A program made the translations under genes and the position numbers. Of a DNA stretch of 64,000 nt, positions 40,056-47,913 are shown one piece after another; within the stretch, counting starts at the first letter, position 1; each line of letters starts with the position of its first letter. The stretch is from Sphingosinicella sp. CPCC 101087. Its GTDB lineage: Bacteria; Pseudomonadota; Alphaproteobacteria; Sphingomonadales; Sphingomonadaceae. The notes beneath the pieces are model-generated. The model was given only the letters and a program-made list of their open reading frames with translations, made no database searches and was not told the origin of the DNA. Where the stretch lies: positions 124,001 to 188,000 of the forward strand of contig NZ_SBFF01000006.1 in the NCBI RefSeq assembly GCF_004151485.1, in the 5' to 3' direction.

Positions 40056-40129
40056 GGCCCGATGGCGGAGTGGTTACGCAGAGGACTGCAAATCCTTGCA
40101 CGCCGGTTCGATTCCGGCTCGGGCCTCCA
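40056..40129 (+). tRNA. tRNA-Cys(GCA), prophage integration site
   Basis: A full cloverleaf: acceptor GGCCCGA/TCGGGCC, D-arm, anticodon stem GAGGA/TCCTT with loop CTGCAAA (anticodon GCA), T-loop TTCGATT, discriminator T and encoded CCA. A P4-type integrase gene begins 160 bases downstream, so the 3' part of this tRNA is attL of the prophage. Confidence 0.97.
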
Positions 40130-40288
40130 CTCTATGTTCCGCCACATTCCACAACGTTCCGTATCCACCTTGTTTTGGCTCGAAAAACCGCGCTATCTGG
40201 GTCCGGAGTGTTCCGACGCTTTCCAAGGAAAGCCGGATATCGAAGGGGGTATTTTGGGGGGACTTGATCTGGCGCTTGGGGGCATCGG

Positions 40289-41560
40289 ATGCTGACCGAG
40301 CTCCGGTGCCGGTCGGCCAGCAAGCAGGCCAAGCCGTACAAGCTCCACGACGAAAAGGGGCTATACCTCTACGTGGCGCCATCCGGCCACAGATCTTGGC
40401 GGATGAAGTACCGATTCGGCGGCGGCGAGGCGCGGCGAGAAAAGACACTGACCTTCGGCCCTTATCCAGAGCTGAGCCTCAAGAAGGCACGGGAGAAGCG
40501 CGACCAGGCCCGTGCGCTGCTGCGGGACGGGATCGACCCGGGCGAGAAGAAGCGCCTCGAGTCAGCCCCGGGAGGCGCGGCGGGTCCGACTTTCGATTCC
40601 TATGCCCGAAGGTGGCATGCGGATCAGGCGGCGCTCTGGAAGCCGGTGCATGCGGATCAGGTCCTGACCAGCCTCGAGAAGAATGTTTTTCCGGCGATCG
40701 GCAGCAAGCCGATCGGCGACGTCCGGCCGGGAGATGTGCGCAAGCTGCTGCTCGCGATTCAGGATCGAGGCTCGGTCGATATTGCGCACCGCGTGCGCGG
40801 GCGCCTCTCGTCGGTATTCGCCCGGGCGATCGCCGACGAGCTGGTGGAGATGGACCCGGCCGCCGCGGTCGCGGCGGTGCTGCAGCCGGTGAAGTCGCGG
40901 CGGATGCCGGCGCTGGTGAAGCTCGATCAGGCGCGCGCCTTCCTTCGCGCGGTCGAGGCGGCGCCGTCGCATCCCGTCACAAAGCTCGCTTCCCGTTTGG
41001 TGGCGCTCACCGCGCTACGACCGGGCGTGATTCGGTTCACGCCCAGGACCGGCGAGTTCCAGGATCTCGAGGGCGAGGCTCCGCTCTGGCATATCCCCGC
41101 CGAGAGGATGAAGCTCGAGCTGGACGAGAGCGAGCAGGAGGCCTTCGATCACCTGGCGCCGCTGGCACGGCAGGCGGTCGACGTGATCCAGGTGGCGCAG
41201 CGCCTCGCCGGCCGGGCGCCTTGGCTTTTCCCGAGCATCCGGCAAGCCCACAAGCCGATCAGCGAGAACGCGCTGAGCTACGCTTACAAGCGAATCAAGG
41301 GCTGGGAGGGGAAGCACGTCCCGCACGGCTGGCGGTCGTCCTTCAGCTCGGTGATGAACGATCTCGCCGCCCAGCTCGATCGTGCGGCCGACGCCGACGT
41401 CATCGAACGGATGCTGGCCCACCAGCCGAAAGGGATTCGCGGAATCTACAACCGCGCCGCCTACATGCCGCGCCGGCGCGAGATCGCGCAGGAATGGGCG
41501 GACATGCTGCTGAAGGGCTTTCCCCCGGCGGAGCAGCTGCTCGAGGGGCCGCGGCACTAG
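40289..41560 (+). CDS. P4-type tyrosine integrase
   Basis: A 423-residue tyrosine recombinase that inserts and excises the prophage. It starts with a DUF4102 domain (KLHDEKGLYLYVAPSGHRSW, TFGPYPELSLKKAREKRDQA), followed by a SAM-like core-binding domain and the catalytic domain. Catalytic residues: Arg in LTALRPGVIRF, HGWR (His-x-x-Arg), LAHQPKG, and the tyrosine in IRGIYNRAAY. Its position just inside tRNA-Cys shows that it acts at this site. Repeated GTTCCG/ATTCC words at 40137-40226 may be arm-binding sites. Confidence 0.93.
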   Translation: MLTELRCRSASKQAKPYKLHDEKGLYLYVAPSGHRSWRMKYRFGGGEARREKTLTFGPYPELSLKKAREKRDQARALLRDGIDPGEKKRLESAPGGAAGPTFDSYARRWHADQAALWKPVHADQVLTSLEKNVFPAIGSKPIGDVRPGDVRKLLLAIQDRGSVDIAHRVRGRLSSVFARAIADELVEMDPAAAVAAVLQPVKSRRMPALVKLDQARAFLRAVEAAPSHPVTKLASRLVALTALRPGVIRFTPRTGEFQDLEGEAPLWHIPAERMKLELDESEQEAFDHLAPLARQAVDVIQVAQRLAGRAPWLFPSIRQAHKPISENALSYAYKRIKGWEGKHVPHGWRSSFSSVMNDLAAQLDRAADADVIERMLAHQPKGIRGIYNRAAYMPRRREIAQEWADMLLKGFPPAEQLLEGPRH

Positions 41561-41600
41561 CACATCGATTTATGTGCGCCGCCGGCCGGGAGGCGCGGTC

Positions 41601-42314
41601 ATGAGCGCGCCATTCGGAACAATCGCCGGCTGCGCGCCGAAGAAGCGCACAGGTCAGCGCGTCTGGCGGAACAGCTATCACCGCGGCGAACGGGAGCACC
41701 GAATTTGGCGCCCGCTCGGCAAGACGAGGGAGGAGGCCTGGAAGTTCAAGAGGGCGCTGCTCAAAGCGGCCGAGCGATTCGAAGATCTGACTAAGCCCGC
41801 GGGCCGACGGATGGGCGAGCTCGGCTGGACTGGGGTCAAGGTCCTCAAGGCTCTCATCGAGATCGTCGACAATATGACGGGCCGCCTCGAACCTGCGATC
41901 GCGACTATCGCGGCGAAGGCGAACCTGGGCGTCAGCACCGTCGGCCGCGCCCTGGCACGGCTCCGAGATGCCGGCTTCCTTGACTGGCTCAGGCGCACCG
42001 AACCTCTCGATAATGACGGCGCCGGACCGCAGGTCCATCAAACCAGCAACGCATATTGGTTCAGGCTCAGGGGCCGCGCCGCTGGCCTGGTGAGGCTGAT
42101 TCTGGGCAAGGCGCCGCCGGAGTCGAAGAGCCGCGAGGAAGTCCAGGCCGAGGCCTCAGCGGAGCGCGCGGCCCGTCTGAAGGCCATGCGCGGCCCGGCG
42201 CGCGTCTCGGCGGCCGACGTCCTGACCGACGAGGCGAAGGCCTCGCTCAGGCGGTTAAAGGAGATGCGGAGCGCGAACGCCTTGAAGCCGATGAATCCGG
42301 GTTCCAAGGGATAA
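41601..42314 (+). CDS. Helix-turn-helix protein, possible replication initiator
   Basis: A 237-residue basic protein. A central winged-helix region (ATIAAKANLGVSTVGRALARLRDAGFLDWL) is preceded by a charged N-terminus (RVWRNSYHRGEREHRIW) and followed by helices rich in Arg/Ala. The layout matches plasmid/phage replication or DNA-binding proteins with an HTH_36-type domain; a repressor role is also possible. The start at 41601 follows GGGAGGCGCGGTC. It is the only obvious DNA-binding candidate near the integrase, in the place where P2 has its control and replication genes. Confidence 0.55.
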   Translation: MSAPFGTIAGCAPKKRTGQRVWRNSYHRGEREHRIWRPLGKTREEAWKFKRALLKAAERFEDLTKPAGRRMGELGWTGVKVLKALIEIVDNMTGRLEPAIATIAAKANLGVSTVGRALARLRDAGFLDWLRRTEPLDNDGAGPQVHQTSNAYWFRLRGRAAGLVRLILGKAPPESKSREEVQAEASAERAARLKAMRGPARVSAADVLTDEAKASLRRLKEMRSANALKPMNPGSKG

Positions 42315-42547
42315 AGGATAAGCGGACGCGCTTCGCGCGGCGCCATTTATCGGTTCGTGACCCTCCCCTCCCCCAGCAATAGCCACCGAACGACGGCGCG
42401 AACGCGACCGCCGCACCGCCGGCTGCGCCGGCGGAGGCTCCCCAGCGGGGAGCGGCGGCCGGTCGCGGTGCAAAATATTCGCATTCAGCGACGGCGATCG
42501 CGATCGGCGGAAACTAAGGCGACGAAAGCACCATCTTAGGCGGCAGA
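42315..42547. other. Non-coding stretch with a predicted three-way junction
   Basis: Between the HTH gene and the tRNA-like gene. Positions 42404-42466 can fold into an outer stem (GCGACCGCCGC with GCGGCCGGTCGC, one bulged base) enclosing two perfect hairpins, CCGCCGGC-TGC-GCCGGCGG and GCTCCCC-AGC-GGGGAGC. The AT-rich word AAAATATTCGCATT follows at once. This could be an origin, a cruciform protein-binding site or a structured RNA. Confidence 0.5.
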
Positions 42548-42655
42548 TGGGGGACGGGGCCGGAGTTGAACCGACACCACTCCAAGGGTAGGAAAAGGGT
42601 GCGACGCCTTCCCCTACAATGTCCTCGGAGGCTCTATCCGTTAAGCTACCCGTCC
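42548..42655 (-). tRNA. tRNA-like gene with a 51-nt arm in place of the anticodon arm
   Basis: On the minus strand, 108 nt fold like a tRNA: acceptor GGACGGG/CCCGTCC perfect over 7 bp, linker TA, D-arm GCTT-AACGGATA-GAGC, T-arm GTCGG-TTCAACT-CCGGC and encoded CCA. The anticodon arm is replaced by an 8-bp stem (CTCCGAGG/CCTTGGAG), a one-sided ACATT bulge, and a perfect 11-bp stem (GTAGGGGAAGG/CCTTTTCCTAC, two G-T pairs) capped by CGTCGCAC. No 7-base loop with T33 is found, so no normal anticodon can be named. It starts one base after a leftward stop codon at 42656. Confidence 0.6.
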
Positions 42656-42940
42656 TTAGCCGCTCTCGATGAACGATAATGGTTGCGCTATTCCTCGACC
42701 ATAGGCTGACTCGCGGTCCTCAGAAAGAGAGTCGCTACCTACCGGTGCACATGTCGTGGGCGAATCGGGAGAGAGGTGGAGGAAAACCGGCCGATCTTCT
42801 CCTGGAGCCCTTCGACCATGCCGGTGTAGCACGTGCCCGTACATCTCCTTGTCCAAATCGAACAGCACCACGCCAAGGTGCCCAGCTTGACGGGCCGGCC
42901 CGTTCTCTATCGCAGCTGACTGAATTTCGATTTCAGCCAC
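42656..42940 (-). CDS. Possible small leftward protein upstream of the tRNA-like gene
   Basis: An open frame of 94 codons from GTG 42940 to TAA 42656 encodes AEIEIQSAAIENGPARQ, then GHLGVVLFDLDKEMYGHVLH and a less convincing C-terminus. The ribosome-binding site is weak and no family is recognised. Its stop codon lies directly before the tRNA-like gene, so the two may be one transcript. It diverges from the Cys4-protein gene. Confidence 0.3.
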   Translation of the reverse strand: MAEIEIQSAAIENGPARQAGHLGVVLFDLDKEMYGHVLHRHGRRAPGEDRPVFLHLSPDSPTTCAPVGSDSLSEDRESAYGRGIAQPLSFIESG

Positions 42941-43028
42941 TGCGGCAGAAGTTAGCGACCCCTGGCCCGACAAGAGCACTTTCCGAAGCGGCCCGTTCTG
43001 ATTACGTTCCTTGTGGCGGGAGGGATCT

Positions 43029-43397
43029 ATGGCGCGCCAACGGCGGATTTGGCCGATTTCGTTCCGAACAGTCGGAACGATGCTCGAGCGCGGCGTCATT
43101 GTGCGCGTCGGCTGCGCGCGATGCGATACGTTCTTCGACGTCGACCTCGCAGCGATCGCCGCGAAACGCGGGCCGAATTTCAACCTCGTCGACCAGGAAA
43201 TCAAGTGCAAGGTTAGCCGCTGCCGCGGGCCCAGCTATTTCGTTGCGGCAGAATCCCGCGATGCCCGCCTCATCACTTTGATCGACGCCGACGTCGATCC
43301 GCTCTCCGTCAACAAACGAGGCCTTCGGCCGCTCGACCTCGAGCCGCCGGAGCCTCCGATCGGCGCCGCGCCGGCGGACCGCGCTAACCCGGTCTAG
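43029..43397 (+). CDS. Cys4 protein, candidate Ogr-like late activator
   Basis: A 122-residue protein with four cysteines spaced C29-x2-C32-x27-C60-x4-C65 (GCARCDTFF and KCKVSRCRG). P2 Ogr/Delta-type late-gene activators have C-x2-C-x22-C-x4-C, so the pattern is close though the gap is longer. The N-terminus is basic (MARQRRIW), the C-terminus proline-rich. The start at 43029 follows GGGAGGGATCT. In P2, ogr lies at the other end of the genome, so the assignment is an inference from cysteine spacing and from the three late-promoter-like dyads in this prophage. A general zinc-ribbon role is the alternative. Confidence 0.5.
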   Translation: MARQRRIWPISFRTVGTMLERGVIVRVGCARCDTFFDVDLAAIAAKRGPNFNLVDQEIKCKVSRCRGPSYFVAAESRDARLITLIDADVDPLSVNKRGLRPLDLEPPEPPIGAAPADRANPV

Positions 43398-44956: not shown

Positions 44957-46084
44957 CTAGTTCACGGGCGCCGCCGGCGACGCGATCCCGATCGGCTGCT
45001 TCGCGAGCTCCTCGAGCACCGGGAAGCGCAGCGCCTCGACGCCCATCCAGTCGTTGACCTCCAAGAATCGCATCGCCAGTGGCACGATCTCGAGCCTGAC
45101 GAATTCCAGCACTGCCTTGCTGACGTCACCAAACCCGCCGTTGTTGACGGGCACCACGCCGACCACCTGGGGCGGCGTCCGGTGCGCTGCGAGCATCTCG
45201 TCGCGGCTCACCAGCTTGATGTTCAGGAACTCGTCCTTGGCCGCCACCTCGCTGATCGGGATGATCTGCACGCCGTCCTTCTTCCCGTTCGGCGCGTGCA
45301 GGAACAGGTTGCGGAAGTTGCCGACCCCCTTCGATTCCTTCAGCGCCTTGCGGATCGCCTGGGCGTCATCGTCGTTCATGCTCGGCTCCGACAGGTAGAA
45401 CACGAATCCGGCATGGCTTCCGTTCAGGTAGTAGCGCCGGCGGAACAGCGTCGCAGCCTCGCCGAGAAGGCCCGCCTGCAGGGCGCAAAGAAACTGCGGG
45501 ATGCCGTAGATCTCCTGGCTCGGATGTTCCTCGAGCAGGTGGAAGATCCGGTCTTTCGGATATTCGTGCTCCTGCTTCCATCCGGGCACGAAGAAGTAGG
45601 TCCCCTCCTTGGTGCCGCGACGCGTGAAACGCGCCAGGCTCGGCACCAGCTGCAGCGGCCGGTTCGCCAGGTTGTCCCGCCGCTCGAGATAGCCGTTGCC
45701 CGTCGCCAGGAAGTCCTGCGCCCAGCGCCGGAAGCTCGACCGGCTCAGCCAGCGCGAGGGCTGCAGGTGGGACGCGAGGATGTTCACCTTGAGGTGAATG
45801 CAGCTCGAGTGCGGCCCGGGCAGGTCGAAAGCGCGGACCAGGCCGTGCATCGACACCGGCGGCTCATACCAACGGCCGTTGATCCAGGTCTCGACATAGC
45901 CGAGGATCTCGCGCCGATCGAGCACGGGCTCGGCATCGCCGAACGAGAAGGCCTGCACGGATCCGCGCGGCGCCCTGCCGTCGGACTCGCCGACCGATCG
46001 GGCGACCACCTGGCCGTCGATCGACGCCGCATTGTCGCTGGCGAGCTCGCCGGCGACACCGGACATCATGGGCAGCTGCTTCAT
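44957..46084 (-). CDS. Phage portal protein (P2 gpQ-like)
   Basis: A 375-residue portal subunit, the ring through which DNA enters the head. The P2 family pattern is seen: YEPPVSMHGLVRAF, HLKVNILASHLQPSRWLSR, FLATGNGYLERRDN, and HLLEEHPSQEIYGIPQFLCA, then FRRRYYLNGSHAGFVFYLSE. It is leftward, like Q in P2, and its ATG overlaps the stop of the terminase gene by one base (TAATG), which indicates translational coupling. Confidence 0.94.
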   Translation of the reverse strand: MKQLPMMSGVAGELASDNAASIDGQVVARSVGESDGRAPRGSVQAFSFGDAEPVLDRREILGYVETWINGRWYEPPVSMHGLVRAFDLPGPHSSCIHLKVNILASHLQPSRWLSRSSFRRWAQDFLATGNGYLERRDNLANRPLQLVPSLARFTRRGTKEGTYFFVPGWKQEHEYPKDRIFHLLEEHPSQEIYGIPQFLCALQAGLLGEAATLFRRRYYLNGSHAGFVFYLSEPSMNDDDAQAIRKALKESKGVGNFRNLFLHAPNGKKDGVQIIPISEVAAKDEFLNIKLVSRDEMLAAHRTPPQVVGVVPVNNGGFGDVSKAVLEFVRLEIVPLAMRFLEVNDWMGVEALRFPVLEELAKQPIGIASPAAPVN

Positions 46085-47913
46085 TAGAACATCTCCATGG
46101 TTGCGGTCTTGGAGCTCAGCTCGCCGTCGAGCGGCTCGTTGATGAGGACGTGCATGATCGCCCAGGCGACGTCGGCATGGCCGGTGTCGCCGGAGCGGCT
46201 GGCGACGTAGGTGACGGTGCGGCCGCTCGCTGTCGCCTGCGGTCGGATCGACATGAAGCTCGCGGTGATGTCCTTGTCGCCGGCGTCATACTCGAGGCGG
46301 CCGGCGCCTATGACGTGCTTGGCCTTATAGACCATCATCGCCTTGATCTCGGGCCGATAGTCGATCCCGCGCGCCGTGGGGAAGCGCGTCCTCACGAGCT
46401 GGTAGACGGCCGCGCCGACGCCGGTCTTGTCGATGCCGATATCGACCACGTTGTAGCGCCGCATCTGGCGGAAGATCTCGGCCGCCTGGACGTCGAATCC
46501 GCCCTTGAGCCGCAGCTTCTCAAGGACGCGGAATTTTCCGGATTTCTTCGCCGGCAGCGCGATGACGACCAGCGCCGCATCGTCGCCGTCCGCGCTCTCT
46601 TGGGGATCGTAGCCGATCGCCACGGCGCCGTCGCCGAACGGACGCAGCGCGTAGCCGTCGAAGTCGCGCCATTTCTCATAGCTGTCGACCCGGCAGCGCC
46701 TCATGAACTCGAGCGGGAAGGCCGAGAGCTCGTCGTCGGCAAACTCACAGAGGTAAAGGTTCGCGAAGACGTCGGCCGGCTTGCGCCGGCGCAGCTCGTC
46801 GATGTCGAACAGGTCGCAGCCGCCGGCGGCCGCGTCCTCGATCGTCACCAGGTGCCGCCAGATTCCGTCGGCGCCGACGGCGCCGTCCTTCAGCGCCTCG
46901 GCATAGGTTTCGACCTTGGTCCAGTCCTTCTTGGGCCGGCCCTCGTTGAACTTCTCGCCCGACCATTTCTTGAAGGCCTGGTGCGCCTTGGTCGACGGCG
47001 TCGAGAAATAGGTCTCGCGATATTGCTTCTGCGACGCCATGCCCGACGCGACGTCGTCCGTCGTGTCGAAGTCCTGGGCCCAGAAGCATTCGTCATAATA
47101 GAAATTGCCGTGCTCGCCCTGCGCCGTCTTGTAGTTCGCGCCCAGGAAGAAGATCGTCGGTCGCTCGAGCGGCTGCCCGTTCTCGTCGTCGCCGCGGTCG
47201 ATCGTCAGGTGCTCGCCCTTCAGCTGCACGCCGGTCACGCGGAAGACGAATTCGATGATGTAGCGGCGGAAAATGTCGGCCTGGCGCCGGGACGCCGACA
47301 GGAAGATCTGGTTTCGGCCCGTCTCGAGCGCGTCGATCAGCGCCTCGCGCGCGAAATACCAGGTCGCGCCGATCTGGCGGCTCTTCAGGATGAATCGCGT
47401 CCGCTGGTTGCGGTTGCGCCACCAGGTCAGCTGATAGGCGAAGCATTCGTCCAGGAAGGCCTCGCGCAGCTGCTCGACCTGCTCGGGGAGGAGCTGGTTG
47501 GCGCGCGGCTTCTTCTTCGGTCCGGCGTTGCGGTTCGCGACGTTGGGATTGAGATCTGCCTCGTTGCCGGAATCCCGGTACCGCCGGCAGCGCTCGAGCC
47601 GCTCAATCTGACGGCCGAGCAGGTCGATCTCTTTGAAGTCGTGCCCGGTCTTGTTTTCCTTGGCGACGAGCATGGTCCAGCGCGCGATCACGCATTCCTC
47701 GGCCCGCCGGATCGACGGCGCCTCGTCCCACTTCTCCCTCTGCTTCCACGATTCGACCGTCGGCCGCTTGAGCTGCCGCCAGCCCGGCAGGCCCTCTCCG
47801 ATCCGGTTCAGCTCCTCGACGATCTGGGTGACGCCCCATCCGCGCCAGAACAGGCTGCGCGCCTCGCGGCGCACGTCGGCCATGTCGGGTCTGTCGATCG
47901 GGGCGAGGAGCAT
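46084..47913 (-). CDS. Terminase large subunit, ATPase and nuclease (P2 gpP-like)
   Basis: A 609-residue packaging motor. The N-terminus has an HTH region (ARSLFWRGWGVTQIVEELNRIG). The ATPase has the Walker A-like KSRQIGATWYFA, Walker B FYYDECFW and coupling motif YRETYFSTPS. The C-terminal nuclease holds acidic residues in VAIGYDPQESADGDDAALV, VDIGIDKTGVGAAVY and GHADVAWAIMH. It is leftward and followed by the portal gene. A 29-bp dyad lies 59 bases (centre) before the ATG and probably drives transcription. Confidence 0.95.
   Translation of the reverse strand: MLLAPIDRPDMADVRREARSLFWRGWGVTQIVEELNRIGEGLPGWRQLKRPTVESWKQREKWDEAPSIRRAEECVIARWTMLVAKENKTGHDFKEIDLLGRQIERLERCRRYRDSGNEADLNPNVANRNAGPKKKPRANQLLPEQVEQLREAFLDECFAYQLTWWRNRNQRTRFILKSRQIGATWYFAREALIDALETGRNQIFLSASRRQADIFRRYIIEFVFRVTGVQLKGEHLTIDRGDDENGQPLERPTIFFLGANYKTAQGEHGNFYYDECFWAQDFDTTDDVASGMASQKQYRETYFSTPSTKAHQAFKKWSGEKFNEGRPKKDWTKVETYAEALKDGAVGADGIWRHLVTIEDAAAGGCDLFDIDELRRRKPADVFANLYLCEFADDELSAFPLEFMRRCRVDSYEKWRDFDGYALRPFGDGAVAIGYDPQESADGDDAALVVIALPAKKSGKFRVLEKLRLKGGFDVQAAEIFRQMRRYNVVDIGIDKTGVGAAVYQLVRTRFPTARGIDYRPEIKAMMVYKAKHVIGAGRLEYDAGDKDITASFMSIRPQATASGRTVTYVASRSGDTGHADVAWAIMHVLINEPLDGELSSKTATMEMF

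Follow-up and report, generated by a model that had tools for sequence, protein, structure and literature searches.

A tRNA-like RNA gene of a Sphingosinicella prophage carries a double stem in place of the anticodon arm and is probably a divergent member of an RNA family of bacterial plasmids, viral contigs and chromosomes

The window analysed here is a 64,000-nt stretch of the Sphingosinicella sp. CPCC 101087 genome. It carries, on the minus strand, a 108-nt tRNA-like RNA gene that the original prediction had assigned to a prophage. In agreement with this assignment, the element was found in a prophage with a tyrosine integrase gene and a repeated probable attachment core, a 15-nt sequence present at window positions 40116-40130 and at G000:C41:206925, about 42.8 kb apart. 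An IMG/VR contig of the same prophage starts at the integrase gene. PHROG searches also located portal and terminase genes at 44957-47913 on the minus strand, in an order that we take to be P2-like. The features of the locus are the following, with RNA sequences given as read on the minus strand:

40056-40129, plus strand: tRNA-Cys(GCA), whose last 14 nt and the next base form the probable attachment core
40289-41560, plus strand: prophage tyrosine integrase gene (PHROG 1, E 1e-40; Pfam)
41574-42314, plus strand: HTH gene of the phage replication O type (PHROG 391, E 2.5e-5), convergent, 233 bp from the 3′ end of the RNA
42548-42655, minus strand: tRNA-like RNA gene, 108 nt, CCA encoded (RNAfold, body detector, model R1 at 62 bits over the full length)
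42649-42655, minus strand: acceptor stem, 5′ strand GGACGGG, 7 of 7 pairs with 42552-42558
42631-42646, minus strand: D-arm GCUU AACGGAUA GAGC, 4 bp, with G18G19 and A20
42623-42630, minus strand: arm stem 1, 5′ strand CUCCGAGG, 8 bp (fold and arm shuffles)
42618-42622, minus strand: 5-nt 5′ bulge, ACAUU in the MFE; GACAU in the family register, with the invariant C central
42607-42617, minus strand: arm stem 2, 5′ strand GUAGGGGAAGG, 11 bp (fold)
42599-42606, minus strand: apical loop CGUCGCAC, 8 nt, with two extra pairs inside it in the MFE (fold)
42588-42598, minus strand: arm stem 2, 3′ strand CCUUUUCCUAC (fold)
42580-42587, minus strand: arm stem 1, 3′ strand CCUUGGAG (fold)
42559-42575, minus strand: T-arm GUCGG-UUCAACU-CCGGC, 5 bp (fold)
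42548-42558, minus strand: acceptor 3′ strand CCCGUCC, position 73 = C, then CCA (sequence)
42656-43210, minus strand: open frame whose stop immediately precedes the RNA; a doubtful gene, matched by neither PHROG nor Pfam

The leftward stop codon that had been noted one base before the RNA is that at 42656-42658, which closes the open frame 42659-43210. Part of this frame lies antisense to another one, at 43011, for which there is a relative in L135. The latter locus shares the order integrase, HTH gene and third gene with the window, and its 350-nt gap contains no tRNA-like element. Searches with the O-like HTH protein of the window matched 38 of 298 genomes of the bacterial family, and the 29 other loci among the 30 listed had no tRNA-like element within about 1.5 kb. 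No promoter-like site of the scanned type was found at 42300-43100, and no toxin gene that might pair with a type III-like antitoxin RNA was recognised by PHROG or Pfam among the nine window proteins scanned.

Analysis of the element confirmed that it has the body of a tRNA. Acceptor stem, D-arm, T-arm and CCA are all present on the minus strand, and the 35 pairs of the acceptor, the D-arm, both arm stems and the T-arm all form. The dinucleotide UA separates the acceptor 5′ strand from the D-arm, the variable region reads UGGU, and the elbow motifs U8, A14, G18G19 and a UUCAACU T-loop could be recognised by eye. As had been described, the anticodon arm is replaced by 51 nt comprising an 8-bp stem, a 5-nt 5′ bulge, an 11-bp stem and an 8-nt loop. 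RNAfold returned this layout as both MFE and centroid, with a folding energy of -49.1 kcal/mol (z -3.0 against 200 shuffles).

A body detector, set to require an arm of 40-100 nt and all 7 acceptor pairs, hit this single element in the window; 40 dinucleotide shuffles of the window gave no hit. When the arm alone was shuffled, its strict topology (8 bp, 5, 0, 11 bp) appeared once in 2000 sequences, and a folding energy as low as that of the arm was reached by 6 of 2000. Standard tools did not recognise the gene: ARAGORN called no tRNA at this position, the Rfam tRNA model RF00005 left the element below its gathering cut-off, and the best Rfam match was tRNA-Sec (RF01852) at 19.9 bits, below the cut-off of 47. 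BLAST found no second copy in the same genome, no homologue in the other 297 of 298 family genomes, no match in phages and none in plasmids at E 1 (at E 10, two unrelated 25-nt matches only), and the sole match among viral contigs was the same prophage.

Viral contigs were scanned for tRNA D- and T-arms lying 48-78 nt apart, which yielded at least 120 loci; the listed loci, together with L007 and the genome contig L127, gave 101 distinct arms, 45-90 nt in length, a set that includes some tandem tRNA fragments. The view that a 34-nt insertion is exceptional was thus not supported, since enlarged arms are common among phage tRNA genes in viral contigs. The first look-alikes of the window element were a few enlarged tRNA-likes (L094, L161, L170, L175 and L060). 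Of all members, L175 alone had been found with a pattern that fixes A20, so this base is present there by construction. Four plasmids matched more than 90% of the L094 element, which had no match in phages, and the HTH protein encoded beside L175 led to two further plasmid loci, pRm1132f and pMSC49d. Members L225-L228 were obtained by similarity to L094, L229 and L230 through the HTH protein, and L232 with a covariance model. In all, 14 relatives were collected on plasmids, viral contigs and chromosomal contigs. The expectation that homologues would be carried by prophages within the window's bacterial family was not supported: L268, the sole relative from that family, is on a contig of 2.9 Mb, and plasmids account for six of the 14 relatives. 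At each of these six plasmid loci the RNA begins 3-12 nt after a protein gene and the RefSeq locus tags jump by one number at the RNA site, which suggests an annotated RNA gene there, the PLSDB table being one that omits RNA genes.

To count compensatory changes, we aligned nine members without the window element (alignment A4), using a structure string drawn from one member. Both sides had changed in 15 of 28 pairs, including 5 of 7 pairs in stem 1 and 3 of 5 in stem 2, and the changes amounted to 30 cells versus 8.0 in shuffles. The signal collapsed once the partners were slid. A covariance model (R1) was built from these nine members, with the window left out and L227 omitted on account of its misalignment in A3. 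R1 recovered the window element from end to end, its arm included in the alignment (62 bits, E 1.6e-13), as well as the held-out members L060, L227, L232, L234 and L268. An alignment of all 15 members (A6) gave both-side changes in 21 of 28 pairs and 80 cells versus 19.9, counts that lean towards the structure because A6 was fitted to R1, so that A4 provides the cleaner count. The compensatory changes that had been proposed as a check were thus found among the relatives in both arm stems, and with the window included they appear in the model-fitted alignment. When each RNA was folded on its own, the MFE had the strict layout in 8 of 14 relatives (L060, L094, L175, L225, L228, L230, L232 and L268). 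The other six were L161, L170, L226, L227, L229 and L234 (L167); L227 falls short by one stem 2 pair, and in the remaining five the double-stem layout is visible in the alignment only.

These data bear on the possibility that the element is a functionless remnant of a tRNA that decayed and took up an insertion by chance. Its isolation would fit decay, given the single copy in the genome, the absence of BLAST homologues in 297 of 298 family genomes and the missing ARAGORN call. However, decay would not be expected to leave all 35 pairs and the elbow motifs intact, the topology is rare in shuffles, and the related RNAs covary; we consider this explanation highly improbable.

The model was also run over 240 genomes of the class. 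All 240 were matched, mostly at normal tRNAs, so this search is no census; of the 30 best matches made into loci, two (G406 and G432) had a long arm, and the window element with its 62 bits was missing among the matches listed. Pattern scans gave 14 matches in 13 of 385 class genomes, seven of them enlarged tRNA-likes according to the detector (L161, L165, L167-L170 and L172), and 9 matches in 7 of 264 family genomes, where the only elements enlarged by eye were those of the window and L268. The element of G566 was identical to that of the Hyphomicrobiales record L127, from which it follows that the class searched is the Alphaproteobacteria. An empty-site comparison for L182 covered five of eight loci; both flanks were kept only in L217, with another open frame between them, and the other four loci matched one flank only. 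Tools for ordinary tRNAs treated the relatives unevenly. L094, L161 and L170 passed the Rfam cut-off of 29 with 46.7-48.2 bits and are thus filed as plain tRNA, whereas at five of the six plasmid loci ARAGORN called nothing and at the remaining one it wrongly called a tRNA-Arg. Altogether, double-stem tRNA-like RNAs probably form an overlooked family on bacterial plasmids, viral contigs and chromosomes. If this is true, alphaproteobacteria carry the family on chromosomes, plasmids and viral contigs, and it reaches at least one plasmid of a gammaproteobacterium. Among the titles and abstract openings searched, which included few subscription journals, neither such an RNA family nor short inserts in phage tRNA genes were described.

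We then considered whether the window copy belongs to this family. It has complete acceptor, D- and T-arms and the layout of stem 1, 5-nt 5′ bulge and stem 2, and R1 lines up its arm over the full length. Its score of 62 bits is the lowest of the 15 members and is by itself little proof, since normal tRNAs score similarly (58.8 for a normal tRNA-Arg in the same window, with the arm skipped, and up to 69.6 elsewhere). The enlarged tRNA-likes scored outside the family reached 55.1 bits or less. The strict topology occurred in 3 of the 101 enlarged arms (L007-L127), namely the viral copy of the window element itself and the family members L060 and L094. A link within the same bacterial family is provided by L268, whose stem 1 (CUCCGGU/GCUGGAG) is near that of the window (CUCCGAGG/CCUUGGAG) and whose T-loop also ends in CU; L268 in turn has a typical UUCUA bulge and an HTH gene 7 nt upstream. 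The window element has neither a UUCUA/UUCGA bulge nor the family HTH gene upstream. In the family register its bulge C is aligned and is followed by A and U, while its own MFE shifts the bulge by one and places an A at the centre. An alternative is that a phage tRNA-like gene was enlarged independently and converged on the family layout, as the frequency of enlarged arms in viral contigs, the missing HTH neighbour and bulge motif and the low R1 score would allow. The rarity of the layout among other enlarged arms, the gap between 62 bits and the 55.1 or less seen outside the family, and the ties with L268 through stem 1 and the T-loop make such convergence unlikely. We therefore regard the window copy as probably a member of the double-stem tRNA-like family, and a divergent one.

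A second alternative is that the RNA is a tRNA gene with a short anticodon-arm intron whose removal yields a normal tRNA. Like tRNA genes with group I introns, the window gene has an interrupted anticodon arm; unlike them, its insert is about 34 nt and the window contains no Rfam intron match at cut-off. Group I introns are far larger than about 34 nt. Some phage tRNA genes do behave as short introns would predict: in a set of 48 CAGCAA-type genes, chosen by a loose motif and probably including some genes of other kinds, excision after nt 28 restored a canonical anticodon arm in 14, versus 0.23 expected from shuffles. L094, L161 and L060 also have restoring positions, which lie in or near the loop, where shuffles often restore too. 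In the window element, by contrast, no excision starting after positions 1 to 19 gave five pairs, U33, a purine at 37 and a 7-nt loop. None of the excisions tested restores a canonical anticodon loop here, and by this test a simple intron-bearing tRNA was rejected for the window element. The same test on L170, L167 and L127 found no restoring position, and by eye the register of the bulge against the tRNA core differs from one member to another. An intron is thus very unlikely here.

Several other kinds of insert were seen in the course of this comparison. Inserts of about 40 nt after nt 28 with a CAGCAA-like motif occur in L173 (Vibrio phage nt-1; 3563-3681, 3959-4078, 4098-4208 and 5997-6108), in L174 (5994-6103) and in L032, L063, L076, L086, L100, L113, L115 and L118, some phages having several copies. 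One such gene, in phage 6E35.1a, is annotated as pseudo tRNA-OTHER, and the nt-1 record has no tRNA genes in the stretch concerned. These inserts are possibly an unknown class of tiny tRNA introns. Inserts of about 50 nt that by eye form a three-way junction just after the anticodon were found in L062 (5378-5497), L068 (230-351), L101 (602-723), L208 (2316-2432) and L211 (9782-9900); an Aeromonas phage has a 74-nt tRNA-Arg that lacks this insert and matches L068 in two pieces. In the tRNA-Met-like phage genes of L010 (961-1067), L043 (6509-6608) and L125 (3248-3353), a CUCAUAA loop is apparently split by a hairpin insert of about 35 nt, as judged by eye. L012, L026, L055, L072 and L110 form a group of tRNA-like sequences with imperfect acceptor stems, which have in common a core near GTTAAACGA-AACGA located between the D- and T-arms.

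The genes next to the RNA were compared across the family. A DnaD/HTH_36-type gene, or what remains of one, precedes the RNA on the same strand in 11 of 15 members, with no more than 13 nt between its stop and the start of the RNA. Such a gene lies upstream in L094, L161 and L175 (Pfam and gap measurement) and in L225, L226, L228 and L230 (Pfam and positions); L229 has an annotated HTH fragment, L268 the HTH gene mentioned above, L232 an HTH gene below cut-off that overlaps the RNA by two bases, and L170 a remnant in two tblastn pieces. For L229 and L230 the association follows from the way in which they were found. The family HTH gene is absent upstream of the RNA in the window, L060, L227 and L234, and is thus a frequent rather than a defining feature. 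A DndB-like gene ends 6 nt upstream of the RNA in L234, a 102-aa gene with no Pfam match precedes it in L227, and a frame of no known type does so in L060. The O-type HTH protein of the window is not of the family's type (pairwise E 0.001 over 35 residues). By our estimate, chance alone would place a stop codon, in one frame or another, in the 13 nt upstream in about one case in two, so the stop that precedes the window RNA means little.

This arrangement raises the possibility of a signal in cis, in which an RNase P cut at the 5′ end of the tRNA-like structure would define the mRNA 3′ end of the upstream gene, the freed RNA having no role of its own. The close spacing in 11 of 15 members, the two-base overlap in L232 and the DndB-like gene in L234 are what such a signal would produce. 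On the other hand, a cis signal needs neither a conserved bulge C, nor A20, nor a covarying second stem, and the frame that precedes the window copy is itself doubtful. We judge this explanation unlikely.

The HTH gene itself often occurs without the RNA. Its protein matched 13 of 385 class genomes, with a tRNA-like element at one of the 13 loci (L191); R1 found no tRNA-like RNA in 18 other HTH loci, and a search for relatives with one HTH protein as query gave none. At 10 of these 18 loci the gene downstream of the RNA-less HTH gene was inspected, and in 9 it was Abi_2-like or DUF3800: Abi_2 above the Pfam cut-off in L190, L194 and L275, Abi_2-like below the cut-off in L188, L198 and L276, and DUF3800 in L187, L195 and L273 (the last by annotation). 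In L274 none was recognised. Where the RNA is present, L225 has an AbiTii gene after it (E 8.9e-34), and the genes downstream of the RNA in L226, L227 and L230 had no Pfam match, Abi_2 being found in none of the four. The position behind the HTH gene looks like an abortive-infection cargo slot in which the RNA is one option. Since rolling-circle replication is reported for pRm1132f (PMC10194956), we do not read the HTH/RNA module as the replication system of that plasmid.

Conservation within the family points to arginine tRNA. A20 in the D-loop and a C in the bulge are present in 15 of 15 members, and the base after this C is U or G in 14 of 15, mostly followed by A. In the model-fitted alignment, G2-C71 and C3-G70 each occur in 12 of 15 members. 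The bacterial tRNA-Arg identity set, as given in PMC9976931, comprises A20, C35, U/G36, G2-C71 and C3-G70, and we infer that the bulge C is the equivalent of C35. Among nine normal tRNA loci matched by R1 or by a member, seven were tRNA-Arg(UCU) and two tRNA-Thr. Compared with canonical bacterial tRNA-Arg, the UCU isoacceptor in particular, the RNAs have a similar body, A20, a C35-like residue and the CCA; they differ in lacking a 7-nt anticodon loop, in having C or U at position 73 in most members (C in 9, U in 4, G in 2) and in carrying a double stem of about 20 bp. C73 is outside the Arg identity list of PMC9976931, which makes efficient charging doubtful. The window element keeps A20, G2-C71 and the aligned bulge C; it has A instead of U/G after this C, and A3-U70 replaces C3-G70. 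Because neither of these last two features is kept, the function of the window copy may have shifted.

On the basis of the structure, the family covariation, the gene position in most members and the conservation of A20 and the bulge C, all of them read from sequence, we propose the following mechanism. The RNA, placed at the 3′ end of an upstream gene that is most often of the DnaD/HTH_36 type, would be transcribed with it, and RNase P would cut at the 5′ end of the RNA and release it. The encoded CCA would supply a ready 3′ end, and the tRNA elbow and acceptor would permit binding by tRNA enzymes, to which A20 and the cytosine exposed in the bulge may present a resemblance to arginine tRNA. 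Decoding would be blocked by the double stem of about 20 bp, so that the mimic could occupy or titrate a tRNA-Arg enzyme, either arginyl-tRNA synthetase or a host anticodon nuclease. The reading that we tentatively prefer, at a little less than an even chance, is that the window element belongs, as a diverged copy, to a family of tRNA-Arg-like RNAs on mobile elements, whose members are non-decoding mimics that engage such an enzyme; the window copy may still act in this way. The original prediction had already suggested tRNA mimicry, with several candidate enzymes. The mimicry gains support from relatives with compensatory changes in both stems, and as to the enzyme, family conservation points to those of tRNA-Arg, a signature that the window retains in part. 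A broader reading, possible and rather doubtful, would see here an abortive-infection-type cassette of plasmids and prophages, whose cargo behind the HTH gene would be an RNA, the tRNA-Arg mimic, that disables or protects arginine decoding through ArgRS or tRNA-Arg-cutting nucleases; the window prophage would then carry a diverged stand-alone version.

Two known systems resemble this proposal in part. Phage tRNAs reported to evade tRNA-targeting defences (PMC10264068) are likewise phage-borne with an altered anticodon region, and could blunt tRNA cutting. By the title of that paper they carry anticodon-loop mutations, whereas in the window element the loop is replaced by the double stem and decoding is lost. 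In the AbiF/RCd22 system, as described in PMC12373285, an RNA is encoded with an abortive-infection locus on a prophage, and Abi_2-like genes follow the same HTH type elsewhere. RCd22 is an antitoxin RNA bound by AbiF, while the present RNA is tRNA-shaped; moreover, the genes after the RNA in L225, L226, L227 and L230 include one AbiTii and no Abi_2. The presence of a tRNA-shaped RNA in an abortive-infection gene slot suggests that tRNA mimicry may serve attack or protection in the conflict between phage and host, and the family can be tested directly on small plasmids such as pRm1132f. Finally, a similar GC-rich, RNA-like stretch (CCCCGGGCGCAU ... GGCAGAGGCGG ... CCGGGGU) was noticed by eye in L188, L189, L190, L193, L194 and L198, with the HTH gene on its 5′ side and an Abi_2-like gene on its 3′ side. 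Rfam gave no match at cut-off on L188, L190, L194 and L198, and this stretch ahead of the Abi_2-like genes is perhaps a variant of the AbiF-associated RNA.
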